Shown here one piece after another: positions 3,463-36,460 of a stretch of DNA of 64,000 bases. Each line of letters starts with the position of its first letter. Position 1 is the first letter of the stretch. The notes beneath the pieces are model-generated. The model did not search any database. It saw only the letters and a program-made list of their open reading frames with translations, and was not told the origin of the DNA. Position numbers and translations under genes: made by a program. Source of the stretch: Erpobdella octoculata (taxonomy: Eukaryota; Annelida; Clitellata; Hirudinida; Erpobdellidae); contig OZ022245.1 in the NCBI GenBank assembly GCA_963978895.1, positions 17,602,414 through 17,666,413 of the forward strand, written 5' to 3'.

Positions 3463-3606
3463 ACATACATACATAAACACACACACATACATACATTCAT
3501 ACATACATCCATCCATACATACATACATACATACATACATACATACATACATACATACATACATACATACATACATACATACATACATACATACATACAT
3601 ACATAC
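3463..3606. repeat. (ACAT)n microsatellite between copies A1 and A2
   Basis: This tetranucleotide tract, with a few CAC and TCC variants near its left end, separates the 3' end of A1 from the truncated 5' end of A2. Both junctions are abrupt. Confidence 0.95.
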
Positions 3607-4471
3607 AGTTTGGCCAAGACGTTGCTGTTCATCGAATTGACAGTGCCATGGGAAAGCAACATGGAAGCCTCAAATATCTTGAAAGAAGAGCGTTACAGAA
3701 TCCTTGCCCAAGATTTGGAGCGTGCGGGGTATAGAGTCGAGATTTTTCCAGTTGAAGTAGGCGCCAGGGGTTTAGCCGGTCGCTCACTCGTCAAATTGCT
3801 TGTGGCTCTCGGAATGTCGGGTCGGAAAAAAACTCAAGCTATCAAGAAAATAGCTGAAAGAGCAGAAACAGCTTCTTTTTGGATATGGATGCAAAGGAAT
3901 GAAAAAGGAGATAATAAATTTAAACAGCCACTTCTGGTTTCCGTACAACAGTGTTAGCTCCTCCTTTGTTTACAAGTTCAGGGACGAAGTCGCGTTATGG
4001 CTGCCGGCGAAAGTTTCGGTTGTTTGCAGTGGAAGGAAAGTTGCTGGCGTTTGGAGAATGGTCGAAACAATGTTTCCTGCCATTGTGGTTTGTGGTGTTT
4101 CTCGTTTGGTGAAGGTGATGGCATGGCTCAAGGTTCCGGAGGTGAATGTTTCTTTCGGTATCGGGGTCTGGCGGTTTGGTGGATGCTGCAGTTACTACGT
4201 GCTCGAGTTCCGGCGTTTGAAAGACGGTTTCTCATCTTGTTACAGTTGCTTGACGGTTTCAAAATGACTTCTTGGTTCTGGTACTTTGAAGATTTGCCGG
4301 TTGTCTGGTTCTGGTCGGAAACGGCATGTGATACACAAATTTCGTCAGGGGGCGGCCGTCTGATCAACGGTCGTGGCCCGCCCTCCCGTGGTAGCGTCAG
4401 GAAAAGGGCCGAAACGCTGGGAGGGTCTTCCTCTGAAGACCTCTGACGAACTTGCTCGAAGAAGAGTTTTC
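3607..4471 (+). mobile_element. R2/Hero-like retrotransposon, family A, copy A2 (strongly 5'-truncated)
   Basis: Only the last ~115 codons and the complete 3' UTR remain. The 5' junction is (ACAT)n joined to the segment matching A3 position ~7840. The 3' end GAGTTTTC is followed by just two ACAT units (4472-4479) and then the 5' region of A3, so the two copies are almost head-to-tail. The 3' UTR carries a few GC-raising differences from A1 and A4, so it is a separate insertion rather than a local duplicate. Confidence 0.9.
3610..3957 (+). pseudogene. C-terminal RLE fragment of copy A2
   Basis: The frame covers the end of the restriction-like endonuclease domain: LLFIELTVPWE, then EEVRY-type helices and the PVEVGARGLAGRS motif typical of this endonuclease family. 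It ends at the same stop as the other family A copies. The RPD half of the active site, the RT and the zinc fingers are missing because of 5' truncation, so no functional product is expected. Confidence 0.85.
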
Positions 4472-4503
4472 ACATACATTTCATGGGCATTAGCCATCGG
4501 ACA

Positions 4504-4580
4504 CTCAGGAAAGACTGAGGGGCGCTCGGGGAAGACCGAGTGGCACCGGGAAAGACCGGAGACATCTTGGAGAGACAAGA
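4504..4580 (+). promoter_or_regulatory. 5' UTR array of four short hairpins, GAAAGA-type loops (copy A3)
   Basis: Four hairpins follow one another every 20-21 nt. They are CTCAG-GAAAGA-CTGAG (4504-4519), CTCGG-GGAAGA-CCGAG (4525-4540), CCGG-GAAAGA-CCGG (4546-4559) and TCTTG-GAGAGA-CAAGA (4565-4580). The stems differ in sequence but stay complementary, while the six-base purine loop is nearly constant. The same architecture recurs in family B. It probably acts as RNA in the 5' UTR, for example as a protein-binding or translation element; that role is inference. Confidence 0.75.
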
Positions 4581-4653
4581 ACTACGGGTGTCTTGGCCTG
4601 GCTAGCCGGGGCACATTTCCGTCTTCGCATGCTACATCTACAACAAAAGAATT

Positions 4654-7600
4654 ATGCCCCCAGAGCTCTTACCGAAAGGGGGGGGGGAGAATGATGAGCT
4701 CATCAATGGACTACAGGATGATGAACCGGCTTTTCCAAGGAACCCTGATGGGGGTTTGCCCGTGTTGTGTGTGTGTGGAAAAAGCTTTAAGACAGTCCGA
4801 GGAATGAAAGTTCACAGAACAAAAATGGGATGTCTTCCCGCTTCTGTTCGCCGCCCATCATCTCTCAGTGCGGGCTCAGTTTCGTCGGCTCAAGAAGTTC
4901 CAGAACCCATCCATGTTCCACAGATTGCTTTCGACGGAGGAACTGAATGTGTTTGTGGAAGAAGATTTAAGTCAATTCGCGGAATGAATGTTCATAAAAC
5001 TAAAATGGGTTGTCAAACTGCTATCAATCAACGCTCTGCATCAACCAAGGAGGCAGGTAACACGTCTGACTACGCCGGGCCGGAAGCTAACCACAGCCCC
5101 GACAAAGTCTCCGATTCAGAAGCAGATGTAAATTCAGAACCCAAGACAAGAATTAAATTTCCGAAAGCAATTGACACTTCAGCTTGGTCAACATTAGACT
5201 TGGAGTTGACGAGATTACTCAAAGCCCAGTTGAGGGAGAATCCACAACTCGATATGAAAACCTTCTCAGAAATTATCTACAAAAAATGTTTTGATTCATT
5301 TGGTGTGGTCCAGAAAAACCCGGTTCACACGCATGCAGCAGTATCCAGACGGCAGAGAGAAATTGAAAAATTAAAGAAGGAGCGAAAGAAACTCAGGCGA
5401 CAATGGAGAATCGCAGAGGGGGTTGAAAAAGTTGGTCTGTCTGAACTGTGGCGGGATGTAAAAAGTCGGCTCCGGGCTCTCAGGGCTGCAGAAAGACTCC
5501 GGAAAAAGAAAAGTGAGCAAAAGAAAGCCAGATGCAAATTCATGGAAAATCCATTTTGCTTCGGAAAAAGTTTGCTGGATCCACCAAAATCTGGCACTCT
5601 TCGAGCGACAAAACAAGAATTAGATGAGCACTTCCGTTTGGCGTTCAAAGATCCTCTTAGCGATTCAGAGCTGCCGGAAAGAACCGATTTTCCCGAAGTA
5701 CAGTTGCCGAAAGTGGCTTTCGACGGTGGAGAGATAAAGATGAATGAAGTATCTCAGTTTCTAAAAAAAACGAGGAACAAATCTGCCCCAGGTCCCAACG
5801 GCATTCCATATTTGTTATACAAGAGATGTCCAGGCGTGCAAAAGCTGCTCTACAACCGTTTAAAGATTGCATGGCGATCTAGATGCGTAGATAGGGAATG
5901 GCAGAAGGCGGAGGGAGTTTTTATCCCCAAAGAAAAAGATTCGGTCAATATCAACCAATTCCGACCAATCTCACTTTTGAACGTGGAGGGAAAAATATTT
6001 TTCGCTGTTCTGGCCAAGAGGCTCACGGATTTTGCAATTCGTAATGAGTACATTGACAGATCCGTGCAAAAAGGAGGAGTCCCCGGAGTACCGGGATGTA
6101 TCGAGCACTCATCCATGATTTGGGAGGCCATCAAAAGAGCAAGACAAAACCAACTCAGCCTGCATGTGGTCCGGCTTGATTTAGCAAACGCGTACGGGAC
6201 TGTTCGCCATCAATTGCTCTGGAAGACACTCAAAAGGCACAATGTTCCAGAATTCCTCATCGATGTTCTGCAACAGTATTTTCGCCGTTTTAGGCTACGT
6301 CTGTCAACATCGACGTGCTCCACAGAGTGGTTCAACTTGCGGGTCGGAATTGCTATTGGGTGTTCAATTTCTCCCATCCTATTTGTTCTGGCTATGCAAT
6401 TATTGCTCGGTTCGATTGCATCTCGGGTTCAGGATGTTTACCTGGGAAAAGGAATTTTCATGCCATCAATAAAAGCCTTCATGGACGACACTACTCTTAT
6501 CTTGAATCACTGCGGCGAAATGCGCCGTATTCTTCAAAATTTCAACGACTTGTTGTCCTGGTGTGGAATGAAGTTCAAGCCAACCAAATCGAGAAGCCTT
6601 TCTTTGCGACATGGAGAGATTGATGGTTTTGTCTCATTCTCGGTGGCTGGTTGCGAAATCCCAACAATCCAGCAAGAGCCTGTGAAAAGCTTGGGAAGAT
6701 GGTACAACGTCTCCATGAATGATGTGAATCGGAGCAGCACCGTTCTGCAGGGCTTGGTTGAGGACCTGAGGAAAATCAATTCAACCGAGCTGCAGGGAAA
6801 GTTCAAGGTATGGCTGGTACAGTTTGTTTTGATACCGAGGTTGCTATGGCCATTAACAATCTATGAGATATGTTTATCTCACGTGGAGCGAATAGAGAAG
6901 AAAATGAACTGCTGCATTCGGAAATGGCTAGGACTTCCACCGGCGTTAACAACTTTAGCTCTATATAGTAAGTCAGCTAAGTTAGCTCTTCCATTCAAGT
7001 CCCTAGTAGAAGAGTACAAGATTAGCAAAATACTGACACAGTTGATGCTGGACAACTCTTCAGACCAATGTATCGTGAATGTGGGCCCATCAGTTGGATC
7101 GGGAAAAGGCTGGACTGCAGGGAGGGACATCCGTGAAGCCGAGGGATCTTTGCAATGGTCTGAAAAGCTCGGAGCAGTGCAACCGGGACGGCTCGGTCTG
7201 GGTTGGTTCCATCATGTGTGGTGGTCTAAGGCCTCGTCGCAGGAAAGGACAAACCTGATTATTCAAGACAGAAGGCAAGCAATGGAGTTGGAAAGAGTGC
7301 AGTTAGGTGCTCAGATGTCGCAACAGGGCGATTGGACTAGATGGGAGGCGGCAGTTCAACATTCGATGACATGGAATGATTTGTGGCGTTACTCGCCCAT
7401 CCGCCTATCTTTTGTGATTAGAGCGATGTATGATCAACTGCCGACAGCTTCGAACTTAGTGAAGTGGGGAAAGCTTGAAAATGAAGCCTGCAAGCTGTGT
7501 GAAAAAACAGAAACTCTGATTCATATTCTCTCATGTTGTCCGTATGCTTTGGCAAAGGGAAGATACACGTGGCGCCACAATGAGGTTCTAAGAGAGATAC

Positions 7601-8190
7601 TGGGCATTATCAAGGAGAACTGCAGACTAGCCAATTCGATGCAGTTGTGCCCCAGAAGAAAAGTTTATTTCTTGAGAGAAGGCTTGCAGCACTTGGGCCG
7701 CAGAAAGGCAAGTACGAGAAGAGAATCGTTGCTTGATGCGGCAAATGACTGGAGGATATCAGCAGACTTAAAAGATGAAGACTGCTTTCCGGAATTGGTT
7801 CGCAGCAGCGGATTGAGACCGGACATTGTCATTTTTTCCAGTTTGGCCAAGACGTTGCTGTTCATCGAATTGACAGTGCCATGGGAAAGCAACATGGAAG
7901 CCTCAAATATCTTGAAAGAAGAGCGTTACAGAATCCTTGCCCAAGATTTGGAGCGTGCGGGGTATAGAGTCGAGATTTTTCCAGTTGAAGTAGGCGCCAG
8001 GGGTTTAGCCGGTCGCTCACTCGTCAAATTGCTTGTGGCTCTCGGAATGTCGGGTCGGAAAAAAACTCAAGCTATCAAGAAAATAGCTGAAAGAGCAGAA
8101 ACAGCTTCTTTTTGGATATGGATGCAAAGGAATGAAAAAGGAGATAATAAATTTAAACAGCCACTTCTGGCTTCCGTACAACAGTGTTAG
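4654..8190 (+). CDS. Zinc-finger / reverse transcriptase / restriction-like endonuclease polyprotein (copy A3)
   Basis: The protein has 1178 residues and no internal stop. The start is set at the ATG of MPPELLPKGGG because the same MPPE context opens family B. Two N-terminal C2HC fingers (about residues 39-60 and 99-120, each C-x-C...H-x5-C around RGMxVHxTKMGC) probably bind DNA. A basic helical stretch lies near residues 230-295. The RT spans about 370-640, with LDLANAYG (catalytic Asp 509) and FMDDTTL (609-615). The CCHC-like knuckle CKLCEKTETLIHILSCC is at 946-962. The endonuclease has RPDIVIF (from 1055) and IELTVPWE (from 1071), followed by the PVEVGARGLAGRS region. The layout fits the R2/NeSL/Hero group of RLE LINEs; the fingers look most like the Hero type. 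It presumably nicks (ACAT)n and primes reverse transcription there. Confidence 0.9.
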   Translation: MPPELLPKGGGENDELINGLQDDEPAFPRNPDGGLPVLCVCGKSFKTVRGMKVHRTKMGCLPASVRRPSSLSAGSVSSAQEVPEPIHVPQIAFDGGTECVCGRRFKSIRGMNVHKTKMGCQTAINQRSASTKEAGNTSDYAGPEANHSPDKVSDSEADVNSEPKTRIKFPKAIDTSAWSTLDLELTRLLKAQLRENPQLDMKTFSEIIYKKCFDSFGVVQKNPVHTHAAVSRRQREIEKLKKERKKLRRQWRIAEGVEKVGLSELWRDVKSRLRALRAAERLRKKKSEQKKARCKFMENPFCFGKSLLDPPKSGTLRATKQELDEHFRLAFKDPLSDSELPERTDFPEVQLPKVAFDGGEIKMNEVSQFLKKTRNKSAPGPNGIPYLLYKRCPGVQKLLYNRLKIAWRSRCVDREWQKAEGVFIPKEKDSVNINQFRPISLLNVEGKIFFAVLAKRLTDFAIRNEYIDRSVQKGGVPGVPGCIEHSSMIWEAIKRARQNQLSLHVVRLDLANAYGTVRHQLLWKTLKRHNVPEFLIDVLQQYFRRFRLRLSTSTCSTEWFNLRVGIAIGCSISPILFVLAMQLLLGSIASRVQDVYLGKGIFMPSIKAFMDDTTLILNHCGEMRRILQNFNDLLSWCGMKFKPTKSRSLSLRHGEIDGFVSFSVAGCEIPTIQQEPVKSLGRWYNVSMNDVNRSSTVLQGLVEDLRKINSTELQGKFKVWLVQFVLIPRLLWPLTIYEICLSHVERIEKKMNCCIRKWLGLPPALTTLALYSKSAKLALPFKSLVEEYKISKILTQLMLDNSSDQCIVNVGPSVGSGKGWTAGRDIREAEGSLQWSEKLGAVQPGRLGLGWFHHVWWSKASSQERTNLIIQDRRQAMELERVQLGAQMSQQGDWTRWEAAVQHSMTWNDLWRYSPIRLSFVIRAMYDQLPTASNLVKWGKLENEACKLCEKTETLIHILSCCPYALAKGRYTWRHNEVLREILGIIKENCRLANSMQLCPRRKVYFLREGLQHLGRRKASTRRESLLDAANDWRISADLKDEDCFPELVRSSGLRPDIVIFSSLAKTLLFIELTVPWESNMEASNILKEERYRILAQDLERAGYRVEIFPVEVGARGLAGRSLVKLLVALGMSGRKKTQAIKKIAERAETASFWIWMQRNEKGDNKFKQPLLASVQQC

Positions 8191-8394
8191 CTCCTCCTTT
8201 GTTTACAAGTTCAGGGACGAAGTCGCGTTATGGCTGCCGGCGAAAGTTTCGGTTGTTTGCAATAGAAGGAAAGTTGCTGGCGTTTAGAAAATAATCGAAA
8301 CAATGTTTCCTGCCATTATGGTTTGTGGTGTTTCTCGTTTGGTGAAAGTGATGGCATGGCTCGATGTCGGAAAAGAACAAAAACATTTTCTGCC

Positions 8395-8857: not shown

Positions 8858-9940
8858 TCTATATATATAAAAGAACATGTCCTGACTGACTGACTGACTG
8901 ACTGACTGATGACTGACTGATAATCAACGCCGAGCTCAAACGCCTCATCCTAGGAACGTGAAATTTGGAACTTATATTACTTTTATAGCGTAAACATCCG
9001 CTAAGAAAGGATTTTTGAAAATTTTGCTCCTGAGGGGAAAAAACTAAAAAACAAAATTTTTTCTAAAACAATGTATATCTCGAAAACCAAAAATGAGGAG
9101 ATTTTGAAATATGGTATATAGATTCTTTTTGAAAAATAAAAAAATACGTGTTTCACCATTTTTTGAAAATTCGGTTTCCCGGACCTCAAATGTGGGTTGG
9201 AAAATTGGGTTATTTGGTTTTTAAAATAGCTGCTACTCAAAAACTGTGAATGCTACAGGAGTAAAAATTAGTTTTTAGTTTCTACTCCAAAAATAATGAA
9301 ATACGTGTTTTAGCATTTTTTGAAAATTTGGTTTCCAGGACTTTAAATGTGGGGTGGAAAATAGGTTATTTATTTTTTAAAGTAACTGCTAATCAAAAAC
9401 TGTAAATACCACAGATAAAAAAAATAGTATTTAGCTTCTATTCTAAAAATAAAGATATACCTGTTTTACCATTTTTTAAAATTTGGTTTCCAGGACCTCA
9501 AATGTGGGGTGGACAATAGAATTACTTGGTTTTTAATGTAACTGCTCCTCGAAAACAATAGATGCTACAGGAGTAAAAATTAGTATTTGGTTTCTACTCC
9601 AGAAATAATGATATACGTGTTTTACCATTTTTTGAAAATTTGGTTTCCAGGACTTCAAATATAGGGTAGAAAATAGGGTTACTTGGTTTTTAAAGTAACT
9701 GCTACTCAAAAACTGTAAATGCTACAAAAATAAAATTAGTATTTAGTTTCTACTCTAAAAATAATGATATATTAGACGGGCCGTGCCGGGCCAGAAATTT
9801 CGGTTTTTGAAACGGGTTGGGCCAAGTTGTCGACGGGCCGAGCCGAGACCTAAAAAATTGATCCGTGCAGTACTCTACTATGTATGCATGGTTAAAATTC
9901 TCAAATTTCATGCGAGCGAAGCCGCTACGGGCACTGCTAG
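8858..9940 (+). mobile_element. Non-autonomous Helitron inserted in (ACAT)n
   Basis: The element starts with TCTATATATATAAAAG followed by a run of TGAC repeats. It ends with a short GC-rich imperfect hairpin region and CACTGCTAG. The left flank ends in A and the right flank starts with T, both belonging to the interrupted microsatellite (ACA|TACAT). That is the A|T insertion without target duplication expected of Helitrons. There is no Rep/helicase coding sequence. The interior is AT-rich and largely made of ~156-bp tandem repeats. Confidence 0.85.
9110..9770 (+). repeat. ~156-bp tandem repeat, four units, inside the Helitron
   Basis: The landmark CCATTTTTTGAAAAT and its variants occur at about 9156, 9313, 9469 and 9625, giving spacings of 157, 156 and 156 bp. 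Each unit also contains a GGTTTCCAGGAC motif, an ACTGCTACTCAAAAACTG motif and a TTAGTTTCTACTC motif. The units are diverged but collinear. Confidence 0.85.
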
Positions 9941-11643: not shown

Positions 11644-11659
11644 ATTAAGCCATTTAGCA

Positions 11660-11752
11660 ACCGGGAAAGACCGGTGACAACTGGGAAAGACCGTTGGCAA
11701 CTGGGAAAGACCGTTGACACTTGGAAAGACAAGTGACCTCTCGGAAAGACGA
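11660..11752 (+). promoter_or_regulatory. 5' UTR array of five short hairpins, GAAAGA loops (copy B1)
   Basis: GAAAGA loops start at 11665, 11685, 11705, 11724 and 11744, about 20 nt apart. The stems are ACCGG/CCGGT, CAAC(T)GG/CCGTTG twice with a bulged T, CACTTG/CAAGTG (perfect 6 bp), and a weak TCG/CGA. The loop is the same as in family A while the stems differ, which is the covariation expected of selected RNA hairpins. Confidence 0.75.
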
Positions 11753-11826
11753 AAACTTCACGGGTATCAGGCCTGGCTTAGCCGAAGTACAATCCGTTCA
11801 AATGCCGCTTCATGTTATACTACGAA

Positions 11827-26968: not shown

Positions 26969-27792
26969 GCATATTTCTAAATGGTAGTATGCGGCAATAC
27001 AGAGAGGTCGACTAGCAGGCTAAGAGAGGCGTGGTTTAAGGCTAGACGTAAATCGCACTCAATTCCACATTTTCAATGATATGTTATTGATATTAATAAA
27101 AAGTGTCGCAAATAATATGAATTGTTGATTTAGTTAGTTCAAAGTTAGTTTGAGTAAATTAGAATAAAACTTACTTATAATTCGTAAAATGCCTTGACTT
27201 CACATTCATGTTATTATTACTATTAACATGATTACCCACTAGTAAAAATGTTCTTTTAAAGCCCTTTTCATTAATTGAAATGACGAGAATTTTAATCAAA
27301 GAAATTATGTTAAAAAATAGATAAATAATAAAACAATCAGGATTAACTATGGCCATTTCCAGCTATATAAAACCATCTACAGAACCCTATGTTAAAACAA
27401 TAAATTAAATATTATAAAAGTTGAAACAGTTGAGTTAAAAATCAGAAATAATTATAAGTTTTGTTTAGACAGAGACATTGAATAGGAGATAAGCTGAATC
27501 GACTTCACTTAACAAATTAATACGGCTATTGACTGATGAAACACATTGAAACTTAAGTTGAAACCACATAAAGAAAAAGCGACCATCTTATATGTAGCTG
27601 ATTTAATATTGCTGGTTTTATATGTTATATATAATAACATATATAAAACCAGTTGGTCTCTCTGTTCTATAGCTTTTTAGTGCCACATTGAGAATAGCAA
27701 TCATAAATATTTAAAGAAAGCGTTCAGCCACGCCCTCTCAGGCTGCTAATCGACCTCTCTGTATTGCCGCATACTACCATTTAGAAATATGC
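26969..27792. mobile_element. 824-bp TIR element (Mutator-like MITE) with 9-bp target duplication
   Basis: Both ends share an inverted repeat of about 66 bp beginning GCATATTTCTAAATGGTAGT, with only a few mismatches at the inner part. TACCGGGCT flanks the element on both sides (26960-26968 and 27793-27801). Removing the element plus one flank copy restores VEIPGFVFVF in the LINE endonuclease. The interior has no coding capacity and contains a further short palindrome near 27612-27653. A 9-bp duplication with long TIRs is most like Mutator-type elements; the assignment is inference. Confidence 0.87.
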
Positions 27793-29799
27793 TACCGGGC
27801 TTTGTTTTCGTATTTAGACATAGAGTTATGAAAAAAGGGGGCGGAGTTGGTTTTTTTATTGACTCTGACTTAAAATATTCTGTTCTTGATGTTATTACCT
27901 GGAGTGTTGATATTACTACATTTGAAATTTTCTTGGTATCTGTGGAGTGTCGAAGAATTGGAAGTTTTACTGTTGGAGTAATCTATCGCCCACCGGATAC
28001 CAATATGAGTGTTTTTAATGCAGAGCTGAGTAACATCTTGGATTACGTTGATAGAAAAAAGATGAAGATATTTCTACTGGGCGACTTCAACATTGATTTT
28101 CTTGACAAAGAATGGAACTCACTTACAGCTGAATTTTTCAATTTACTAGCTTCCCACTGCCTTCTTCTTGCCTTTACTAGAAAATGCCCTTCAACCGCCA
28201 CCGCAATTGATAATATATTTACTAATTATCCACTACAGAAGACTCTCGCCAGGATTGTACTCGATGATGTCTCGGACCACTTCCCTATTTTTCTCTCTGC
28301 CACATTATCGACACCTGATTGCGTCGGAAAAAATCATGTCTCTTCCTTAAGAAGGAGTTTCGTTAATAAAGACATTTTTGAGCAAACGCTGCATGGAGCC
28401 GATTGGTCTAGGGTAATAGAGGTGGCCGAGTGTGGCGACGCGTCATCCGCCTATTCAATGTTTATCAATAGATACCTTGAGATATATAATAATTCTTTTC
28501 CTCTGGTGAGCTGCAGCGGCAAATCTAACGGACCTAACAAGTTTGATAAAGAATGGATGACACCTGAACTTATGAAAAGCTGCACGAAAAAAATGCGCTT
28601 TACCGAGCATACACCAGGAATCCATCTCCGTCTAACAAACAAAAATTTATTACATTTAGAAACCTCTTCAAATCAACTAAGGTAAAAACCATCAAACAAT
28701 TCTACTCCGAAGTTTAAATTAAACAACAACAACATGAAAGGAACATGGAAGTTAATTTGGAGCATTTTAAATTAAAAGACAAACATGGAACAATGCAAGA
28801 CTTTCTGTACGGATGACGGTAGTCTATTAACATCTTCTTCTGTTACTGCTGAGTCATTTAATAATTACTTTTTTAATATTGGCTCCAACCTCGCAAGAAA
28901 GATATCCTCACCGGATACAACGTTTGAAAAATATCTTGGCAATCCTGTGACTCACTTTTTTTATGTCGCACCCACTACGCCCGATGAGATTATCAAAATA
29001 GCTTCAAACTTAAAAATCTCTCACAGCTGCGGATCCGATGGAGTCGACCAATGCATCGCACGAAATTCAATTACGGCGATTGCTTGTCCTCTGTCTGCCA
29101 TAATAAATTGCTCAATATCTTCAGGGGTATTCCCCGCTCAATTAAAAACAGCCAAAGTCATTCCAATTTACAAATCTGGGAAAAAAGAAAACTTTTCTAA
29201 TTACCGGCCAATATCTGTCTTGTGCTATTTCTCAAAGTTTTTTGAAAGAGTGATGCACTCCAGACTTTATAATTATCTTTAAAAATTTTCCATTATTACA
29301 CCAAATCAGTTTGGATTTAGAAAAAATCACTTAACTTATATGCCACTGGTCATGCTACACTCAAAGATTGCGAGGCCATGGATCGTGGGAAATATGTAGT
29401 TGGCATCTTCCTGGACCTAGCTAAAGCCTTCGATACGGTTGATCACGGCATTCCTGTGGAAAAATTGAGGTACTATGGAATCCGGGGAACTCCACTATCA
29501 TGGTTCAGTGACTATCTTAGCTGTAGATCACAATGCGTCCAGTACAGCAATTCTATCTCTTCGATGAAGCAGGTAACTTGCGGGGTGCCTCAAGGTTCGG
29601 TGCTGGGACCGCCTCTATTCCTCATCTATATTAACGACCTATGCTCAGTTTCAGATCGCCTTGAATTTGTTTTGTTTGCGGACGATACTAACCTCTTTGC
29701 GACTGGCGATAACTTAGAAAATTTATATTACGATACCAACCGTGAATTACTTTCTGTTTCTAAATGGTTCTCTGCTAGTAGACTTTCCTTAAATGTAAG

Positions 29800-34942: not shown

Positions 34943-35515
34943 TTAACAATAAATTTATCATCCCGTACCAGAAATCCTGGGACCGCGCCTGTTGTTACAG
35001 AAACTATTCCCTAATCAAAACAACATTTTTATGCTTGTTTCGAATTTTTTACGGGTTATATCTGCTTCTGTCCGTCTATTTGGCCGATGCGGTATTCATT
35101 CATGGGCCGATGCAGTATTTAGCTACTTTTTTTTAACCTCCGCCAGCGTTAGCTACTTGTCTATCGTAGCGTCGTCCTTATTTATTTTTGGAGGACCACG
35201 ACCATATATATCACGACTAAGGCGACTAAGCGGTTTTATCGAGACTCGCAATTTGGTTCGTATTTCTTAAAATGCCGGAACGTTGTTGTCGGGCTTACTT
35301 GTTATATATACAATACAAAAATTTTTTTATAATCAAATTTTTATGAAGATCATCTGGGCATTTAATGACATTTTGTTAACGAACGTCTTGACCTGGTCCT
35401 GGTGTTTGACAGGAATGGAGTATCGCTGATATAGAACTGTAGTTATTTTGTGTTAATAGTAAATAGTTGGATAGACTTGTCTATAGTTGTATCTATGTTG
35501 GATTCAGTTTTTGTA

Positions 35516-36460
35516 ATGGGTCAAAAAATTTCCGGGGGTACATCAATTAAAAATTTGACGTCTTATGCCCGGGAGCCCACACAGACTGCTTCACGTTGTC
35601 GTCAGTTTGACGGATGTCATGCTTACCACCCTGATTACCAGCAACCCAGTCGACTTGATATTCTTTTATCGTCTATTCCTTCAAGTGATGAGGTTCGAAG
35701 AAATCACACCTGGAATCCTGATGACAGGTCTCTCAACATTTTTGTTAAAGAGGATGATCCATTTACATTTCATAGACATCCAGTTGCTCAAAGTACAGAC
35801 TGTATTCGTGCTCGAGTAGGTTATGTGAGAGGTTTGCATGTGTGGGAGATAACTTGGAGTATTCGCCAAAGGGGAACTCATGCCGTAGTTGGTGTTGCAA
35901 CAAAAAATGCCCCTCTTCATTGTGCTGGATATCATTCTTTGATTGGGAGTAACAGTGAATCGTGGGGCTGGGACTTAGTTAGGAATAAATTGTATCATAA
36001 TTTAAAAATTACTTCACAATCAGGATATTCTTCAGCTCCTACGTACCCTACCATTATTGATGATCCAGGGGATTCTTTTATAGTTCCTGACTCTTTTCTT
36101 GCAATTTTGGACATGGATGAAGGAACATTGAGTTTTGCTGCGGGTGGTAAATACTTGGGAGTTGCTTTTAGGAATTTGAAAGGACTAAAGCTTTATCCTG
36201 CCATTAGTGCAGTTTGGGGGCACTGTGAGGTTTCTCTCAAATACATTGGAGGCCTTGATCGTAAGTGGTGTTATTATTATTCAGAATTAGATTATACTAT
36301 TTAAAATGACTAGATTTCATGCAAATTTTTAGCTGAGCCATTGCCACTGCTTGAGCTCAGTCGTCGAATCATTAGAGAACAATTAGGTAAAAACAAGCTG
36401 CAAGAAGTACACAAACTACCTTTGCCTATTTGCCTGCAAATGTATCTTTTGTACCAGTGA
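35516..36460 (+). CDS. SPRY domain-containing SOCS box protein, SPSB1/SPSB4 (gustavus) type
   Basis: Two coding exons are joined by a 72-bp intron: 35516-36260 and 36333-36460. The intron starts GTAAGT, ends TTTTTAG, and splits the codon of the Pro after GGLD. The spliced protein has 290 residues (SPSB1 is about 273). The start is the ATG of MGQKISGG, the conserved N-terminus of this family, not an earlier in-frame ATG at 35450. The SPRY domain contains [82 protein letters not shown] and AVWGHCEVS. Exon 2 gives the SOCS box, [18 protein letters not shown] then [16 protein letters not shown], which recruits Elongin B/C and Cullin-5 for ubiquitin ligation of SPRY-bound targets. The usual BC-box Cys is Ser here. 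It is the best-supported host gene in the window and appears intact. Confidence 0.95.

Follow-up and report, generated by a model that had tools for sequence, protein, structure and literature searches.

In the genome of the annelid Erpobdella octoculata, three families (A, B and C) of an element that, judged by its protein sequence, is an RLE-type non-LTR retrotransposon carry a tandem array of short RNA hairpins between the 3′ untranslated region (UTR) of an upstream unit and the open reading frame (ORF). The loops are nearly constant, whereas the stems change, and pairing has been kept through changes on both sides across the three families, which is well supported as selection on RNA structure. 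The array is not confined to the element: the same motif is also present inside tmRNA, 5′ of some tRNAs and in phage leaders. Collectively, these observations point to an undescribed RNA building block common to tmRNA, phage leaders and the retrotransposon leader. Its newness would concern the RNA motif as a kind, and a sceptic may call it a variant of the structured leader.

The window, that is, the whole stretch of DNA that was analysed, spans 64 kb, and the genome scans covered 386 Mb in 94 contigs. Copy A3 of the element in the window has an ORF of 1,178 amino acids (4654–8190; like all array features below, on the + strand), which contains RVT_1 (E = 7.2e-26) and zf-RVT (E = 1.7e-6) domains, two N-terminal Cys/His finger-like repeats and a CCHC motif near the C terminus (residue 946). 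The protein matches R2 structures by sequence, with a best E value of 2.5e-23, and its named relatives, among the best 120 of 361 matches, point to an animal host. The endonuclease pattern PD-X10–16-D has no match in it, and a PD followed by E after 14 residues was noted by eye. Several copies of the element in the window sit in (ACAT)n microsatellites, and a search of viral contigs found no relatives of the protein.

Each unit of the array comprises a stem of about 5–6 bp and a GAAAGA loop enclosed by G and C, and is joined to the next by a TG-A-CA or short purine-rich linker, with a period of 19–21 nt. The A3 array consists of four hairpins, as had been described: hairpin 1 (4504–4519, stem CTCAG/CTGAG, loop GAAAGA from 4509), hairpin 2 (4523–4542, CGCTCGG/CCGAGTG, GGAAGA from 4530), hairpin 3 (4546–4559, CCGG/CCGG with four straight pairs, GAAAGA from 4550) and hairpin 4 (4565–4580, TCTTG/CAAGA, GAGAGA from 4570), with loop spacings of 21, 20 and 20 nt. 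The B1 array (11657–11757) has five GAAAGA loops, starting at 11665, 11685, 11705, 11724 and 11744 (spacings 20, 20, 19 and 20 nt). The regular series of five loops described for B1 is thus present, but its fifth stem has decayed in the window copy (TCTCG/CGAAA); the intact form, TCTCG/CGAGA, occurs in 29 of the 30 B copies extracted from the genome. Units 2 and 3 of family B have one stem in common, in which a T must bulge out after the second pair for the stem to pair along its whole length (CAAC-T-GG/CCGTTG). Family C (L263), a third family found in the host genome, has five hairpins, one of them weak.

The loop is GAAAGA in seven of the nine window units, with GGAAGA and GAGAGA as the variants already noted, and GGAAAGAC is the loop word of most units (4508–4515 in the window, and others). 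The innermost stem pair is G-C in all nine, and the adjacent pair takes all four Watson–Crick forms. By sequence, each of the three loop variants seen in the 14 units of the three families fits a GNRA-type loop (positions 1–4, or 1–3 and 6). A longer terminal hairpin follows the array on its 3′ side (4588–4614 in A3) and is part of the RNAalifold consensus. It has 10 bp in A and C and is interrupted in B (11764–11790 in B1, GTAT/GTAC and GGC/GCC), with folding energies of −14.0 (A), −4.9 (B) and −16.0 (C) kcal/mol. In one family C copy (L266), a tRNA-like sequence with an A-rich tail, seen by eye, is inserted directly after the last hairpin and is probably a tRNA-derived SINE.

The complementarity of the differing stems exceeds what arm swapping yields. 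Within the window, the nine units form 41 of their 45 nearest pairs, whereas swapped arms form 29.3 on average (P = 5e-5). The preliminary claim that each differing stem stays paired fails for B1 unit 5, and B units 2 and 3 need the bulge. Across 14 units from A, intact B (L268) and C, taken without filtering for pairing, 63 of 70 nearest pairs form against a swap mean of 46.4, and 63 was reached in none of 20,000 swaps; with one bulge allowed, the figures are 67 and 53.2, again with none in 20,000. An alignment of these 14 units (A4) gave a covariation score of 0.573 against 0.211 in shuffles (reached in 0 of 500) and at most 0.159 with slid partners. Two of the five measures in this test were not distinct from shuffles: pairs with change on both sides (5 against 3.7; 72 of 500 shuffles) and the number of additional pair types (9 against 8.9; 299 of 500). 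C unit 2 pairs poorly (three of five), and the outermost, sixth pair fails in 11 of the 14 units, partly because bulges shift the register. The earlier reading of a constant loop on changing but paired stems as selection on structure is supported by the third family and by the arm-swap, slide and shuffle controls.

Folding of the array alone gave z scores of −6.35 (A) and −4.46 (intact B), values as low being found in none of 1,000 shuffles. With flanks included, folding was weaker (A, −3.31, or −2.32 on a longer stretch; intact B, −3.03), and the decayed B1 leader reached only −0.53. RNAalifold on A, B and C predicted 39 pairs, eight of them with change on both sides, with a small covariation term (−0.33). 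The consensus also holds a possible stem that would enclose the entire leader at long range; in it, GGCAU (4486–4490 in A3) faces AUGCC (4654–4658), the strand that holds the start codon. This GGCRU/AUGCC pairing can form in A3, L268 (B) and L263 (C), the family C strand being GGCGU with a G-U pair; four of the five pairs never vary, so the stem is weak evidence, without covariation support. Another stem around the array, TAGCCA/TGGCTA, fits A and B but not C and was dropped.

Genomic copies do not show stems unpaired at the rate of random sequence: 39 of 40 scored A copies are identical over 121 nt, and all five hairpins are intact in 29 of the 30 B copies that were read. Since these copies are recent, the weight of the argument rests on the differences between the three families. 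A loose pattern of three GGRRAGAC words matches the genome 363 times on one strand and 419 times on the other, whereas its reversed form does so 6 and 9 times; the matches overlap, and arrays are fewer than matches. Among the matches listed, all of which lie on contig C1, we found A, B, C or close variants, and a stricter pattern for further families (beginning MGGAAAGACK) had no match in the genome.

The sequence upstream of the array is also recurrent. Directly before the A3 leader lies A2, which comprises the 3′ end and 3′ UTR of the element (3606–4480), and the same junction is found in the other A copies read. This observation draws on the window (3606–8364) and on loci L189–L218, L222–L250 and L258–L262. 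Among A copies, the element's own 3′ UTR precedes the array with one identical junction in all 28 read (of 40 listed); some of them switch to (ACAT)n at varying points inside this upstream 3′ UTR, and an older copy (L267) retains only about 30 bases of it. In family B, 28 of the 30 copies read have the upstream 3′ UTR, L247 has about 14 bases, and B1 has none. Furthermore, complete units stand head to tail at three loci: contig C1 carries three 4,231-bp units without a mismatch, and contigs C4 (3,792 bp) and C7 (3,788 bp) carry two units each, with one mismatch at each locus. C4 and C7 units differ from one another at 49 of 3,792 positions and by two gaps. These junctions and concatemers fit either RNA templates that are read-through, rolling-circle, concatemeric or circular, or amplification of the units once inserted. 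HeT-A and TART telomeric elements and Penelope-like pseudo-LTR elements likewise join a partial upstream unit head to tail to a full one. The present case differs in that an RLE-type element sits in (ACAT)n and no ribozyme was found, and the likeness concerns the concatemers, not the array.

The motif recurs in phage and bacterial DNA. Three GGAAAGAC words in succession occur at 21 loci in viral contigs, six of which have at least three pairs in all three stems and linkers that resemble those of the element; another, L018, has one strong stem and lies inside a tmRNA. A pattern of two loops and a linker found 55 viral loci (11 near-duplicates), and 50 of them have at least two hairpins of at least 3 bp (exceptions: L018, L031, L034, L044 and L051). 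Three control scans measured the chance baseline for these 55: a permuted loop gave two loci, one changed loop base three, and a permuted linker two. In bacterial genomes, the triple-loop scan yielded at least 116 loci, and among the matches listed 25 of 116 have at least two hairpins of at least three pairs. Loose triple-loop scans of this kind pull in many stemless repeats, and four of the 25 (L109, L114, L159 and L162) resemble repeats of simple or coding sequence. In Pseudophaeobacter sp. EL27, similar arrays of at least four hairpins lie on three contigs (L075, L107 and L184), perhaps in a mobile element.

A covariance model built from prokaryotic arrays only (R1) ranks the window arrays first (E = 3e-11, 5.2e-10, 1.7e-8 and 0.0015; next match, 0.45). 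The model was made from 20 pairs of hairpins selected for pairing, and the prokaryotic alignments (A2 and A3, with 36 and 20 rows from 55 pairs) required at least three pairs in both stems and seven together, so that both R1 and the 84.6% pairing of the prokaryotic stems are favoured by this selection. Pairs with change on both sides were not above shuffles in the prokaryotic alignment (156 of 500). The prokaryotic sets were also collected with the window's loop as seed, and the two-loop viral pattern fixed the linker as well; these features are therefore common by construction. Features outside the seed are the pairing of the stems and a bulge that recurs after the second pair; the TGAC linkers of bacterial tmRNA arrays were found without a linker seed.

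The settings to which these arrays could be assigned are structured or leader RNAs. Rfam placed arrays inside tmRNA, on the same strand, at four viral loci (L018, L025, L029 and L048) and five genome loci (L078, L125, L133, L161 and L164) among the 41 array loci searched; prokaryotic arrays have the same strand as the tmRNA or tRNA to which they belong. A script run on 45 non-redundant arrays (186 loci) put 17 before an ORF, seven in tmRNA and one (L066) directly before a tRNA. Among the 20 left unplaced by the script, L025 and L029 are tmRNA by Rfam, L136 adjoins an Rfam tRNA, and L038, L040, L041 and L060 lie 5′ of unusual tRNA-like genes, as judged by eye only. The phage tRNA genes at these last four loci and at L058 are 114–126 nt long, with about 40 nt of inserted sequence in which words resembling ACAGCAA occur. 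The 17 ORF-leader arrays end 5–54 nt before their ORFs. Three phage ORFs checked after arrays (L001, L011 and L022) belong to PHROG 13908, of unknown function; that of L011 additionally matches a head scaffold weakly, and the gene after it encodes a major head protein. Two distant homologues of the array-bearing phage gene have no array, which indicates that the array is dispensable there. With one array as query, BLAST found matches in 13 phage records, in which the matching region has no annotated feature (nine), is a hypothetical protein (three) or belongs to an unannotated record (one). Phages mEp390, ESP2949-1, Medea1, P7641 and Pokken have the motif in an unannotated gap, which in Pokken is upstream of a tRNA cluster; R1 matches each of the five (E = 2.6e-7 to 5.7e-6), and they carry mostly single units rather than arrays.

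None of the 4,227 Rfam families matched the window at gathering score, and none matched the array in the A, B and C copies L216, L268 and L263. Among the 41 array loci, Rfam matched tmRNA and tRNA and not the array itself, and in the five named phages it gave tRNA matches together with weak tRNA-Sec and tmRNA-type matches below family cut-offs. The same searches of the window and of L216, L268 and L263 had no hammerhead or HDV-like ribozyme match in the leader, in agreement with the earlier contrast to R2. Like the R2 5′ UTR, the array is a structured leader upstream of an RLE-element ORF, but R2 has an HDV-like double pseudoknot there in place of tandem hairpins. The lambda boxB hairpin has a GNRA-like loop, as the array does, but a five-base one and no array, and CsrB and RsmZ have repeated hairpins with GGA in the loop. 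GGA begins most array loops too, but loop conservation extends beyond it, and CsrA sites do not fix AAAGAC as is the case here. To our knowledge, no boxB-like or CsrB/RsmZ-like array system exists in animals, and we know of no ANTAR proteins in the host. ANTAR target RNAs are similar in that a leader carries at least two small hairpins, each with a loop of six bases; A1 and G4 are required in that hexaloop (PMC8934654), whereas all 14 units have G1 and A4, and we ruled this class out. GGAAAGAC also forms part of a conserved stretch of 23S rRNA, 2054–2068 (PMC12887398), perhaps by coincidence. Among the papers listed by searches of open-access literature, we found no description of the array; most subscription journals lie outside that scope, and a description could exist.

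As to function, we tentatively favour, at somewhat less than an even chance, a GNRA-like hairpin module that folds by itself and gives RNA leaders both structure and protection. Each unit would be a fast-folding structural module, largely independent of protein, and the three loop variants would all suit a GNRA-type loop with extra bases. Arrays would grow by duplication of units, of which B units 2 and 3 with their one stem may be an example, and diverge by compensatory change. The RNA of the element ORF, if copied from concatemeric or read-through transcripts, would lack a nearby cap for that reason, and the array as a structured leader could resist 5′–3′ exonucleases and insulate the ORF from upstream sequence. 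Such shielding would be analogous to that argued for the R2 5′ folds, as a barrier to 5′–3′ exonucleases and a stand-in for the cap (PMC11331408, PMC12222951). We counted in favour of the leader module the covariation, the folding of the array alone, the recurrence of the motif elsewhere, the settings of the arrays in structured or leader RNAs (17 ORF leaders, seven tmRNA and one tRNA by script, with L025 and L029 in tmRNA by Rfam) and the upstream 3′ UTR in element copies. Against it we counted the weaker folding of whole leaders, the poor pairing of C unit 2, the two covariation measures that do not stand out, the 20 of 45 arrays left unplaced by the script and the two phage homologues without an array. 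The internal position of the array in tmRNA fits a structural role but not 5′ shielding, and a purely structural role would leave the constancy of the loop unexplained. If the reading is right, a modular motif without an Rfam family occurs in unrelated RNAs (tmRNA, the leaders of some tRNAs, phage head-operon leaders and a retrotransposon leader), and how RLE-element RNA is stabilized and translated without a nearby cap becomes a testable question.

The R2 protein is proposed to use the 5′ RNA of its element, and the element's own protein could likewise bind the array as its 5′ site. The closeness of the array to the ORF in all three families, and the way in which hairpin number and stems vary by family around a constant loop, would suit such a site; we hold it to be quite unlikely, as the motif also occurs where no reverse transcriptase is involved (tmRNA and phage leaders) and R2Tg is reported to cleave and insert without need of its 5′ UTR (PMC12222951). 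A doubtful proposal of similar standing is that translation starts internally on concatemeric or circular RNA with the help of the array and its flanking stem, the GGCRU/AUGCC stem regulating the start codon. The upstream 3′ UTR (present in all 28 A copies and in 28 of the 30 B copies that were read), the start-codon stem in the consensus fold and the distance of 5–54 nt between array and ORF in the 17 leader cases count in its favour, but that stem hardly varies and has no covariation support, and the tmRNA and tRNA contexts do not fit.

The many unrelated contexts could instead reflect pure convergence on a stable hairpin that often arises by duplication, with no function common to them. The window loop was the search seed, which makes part of the likeness a matter of construction, and the named phages carry single units; nevertheless, control motifs of equal length yield two or three loci against 55, and the TGAC linkers of the tmRNA arrays came without a linker seed, so that we regard convergence as improbable. 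The loop could also be what a protein or ribosomal component common to bacteria and animals recognizes, with tandem units giving multivalent binding. In line with this, loop and linker are far more constant than the stems, altering either drops the viral loci from 55 to two or three, and the loop word is identical to part of 23S rRNA 2054–2068 (PMC12887398). No binder is known, however, family A tolerates loop changes, and G1 and A4 depart from the ANTAR requirement (PMC8934654); we consider recognition of this kind unlikely. A broader proposal, to which we likewise assign a small chance, takes the GGAAAGAC array as a general module that has arisen many times in bacteria, phages and an animal retrotransposon because its loop is read by a factor or fold common to both domains (for example, on the ribosome or in RNA processing); in this element, the array would let uncapped concatemeric or circular RNA be translated and reverse transcribed.

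Elsewhere in the window, a tandem repeat of about 156 bp in four copies occupies 9160–9735, and ORFs at 27789–28685 and 35450–36304 bear Exo_endo_phos_2 and SPRY domains.
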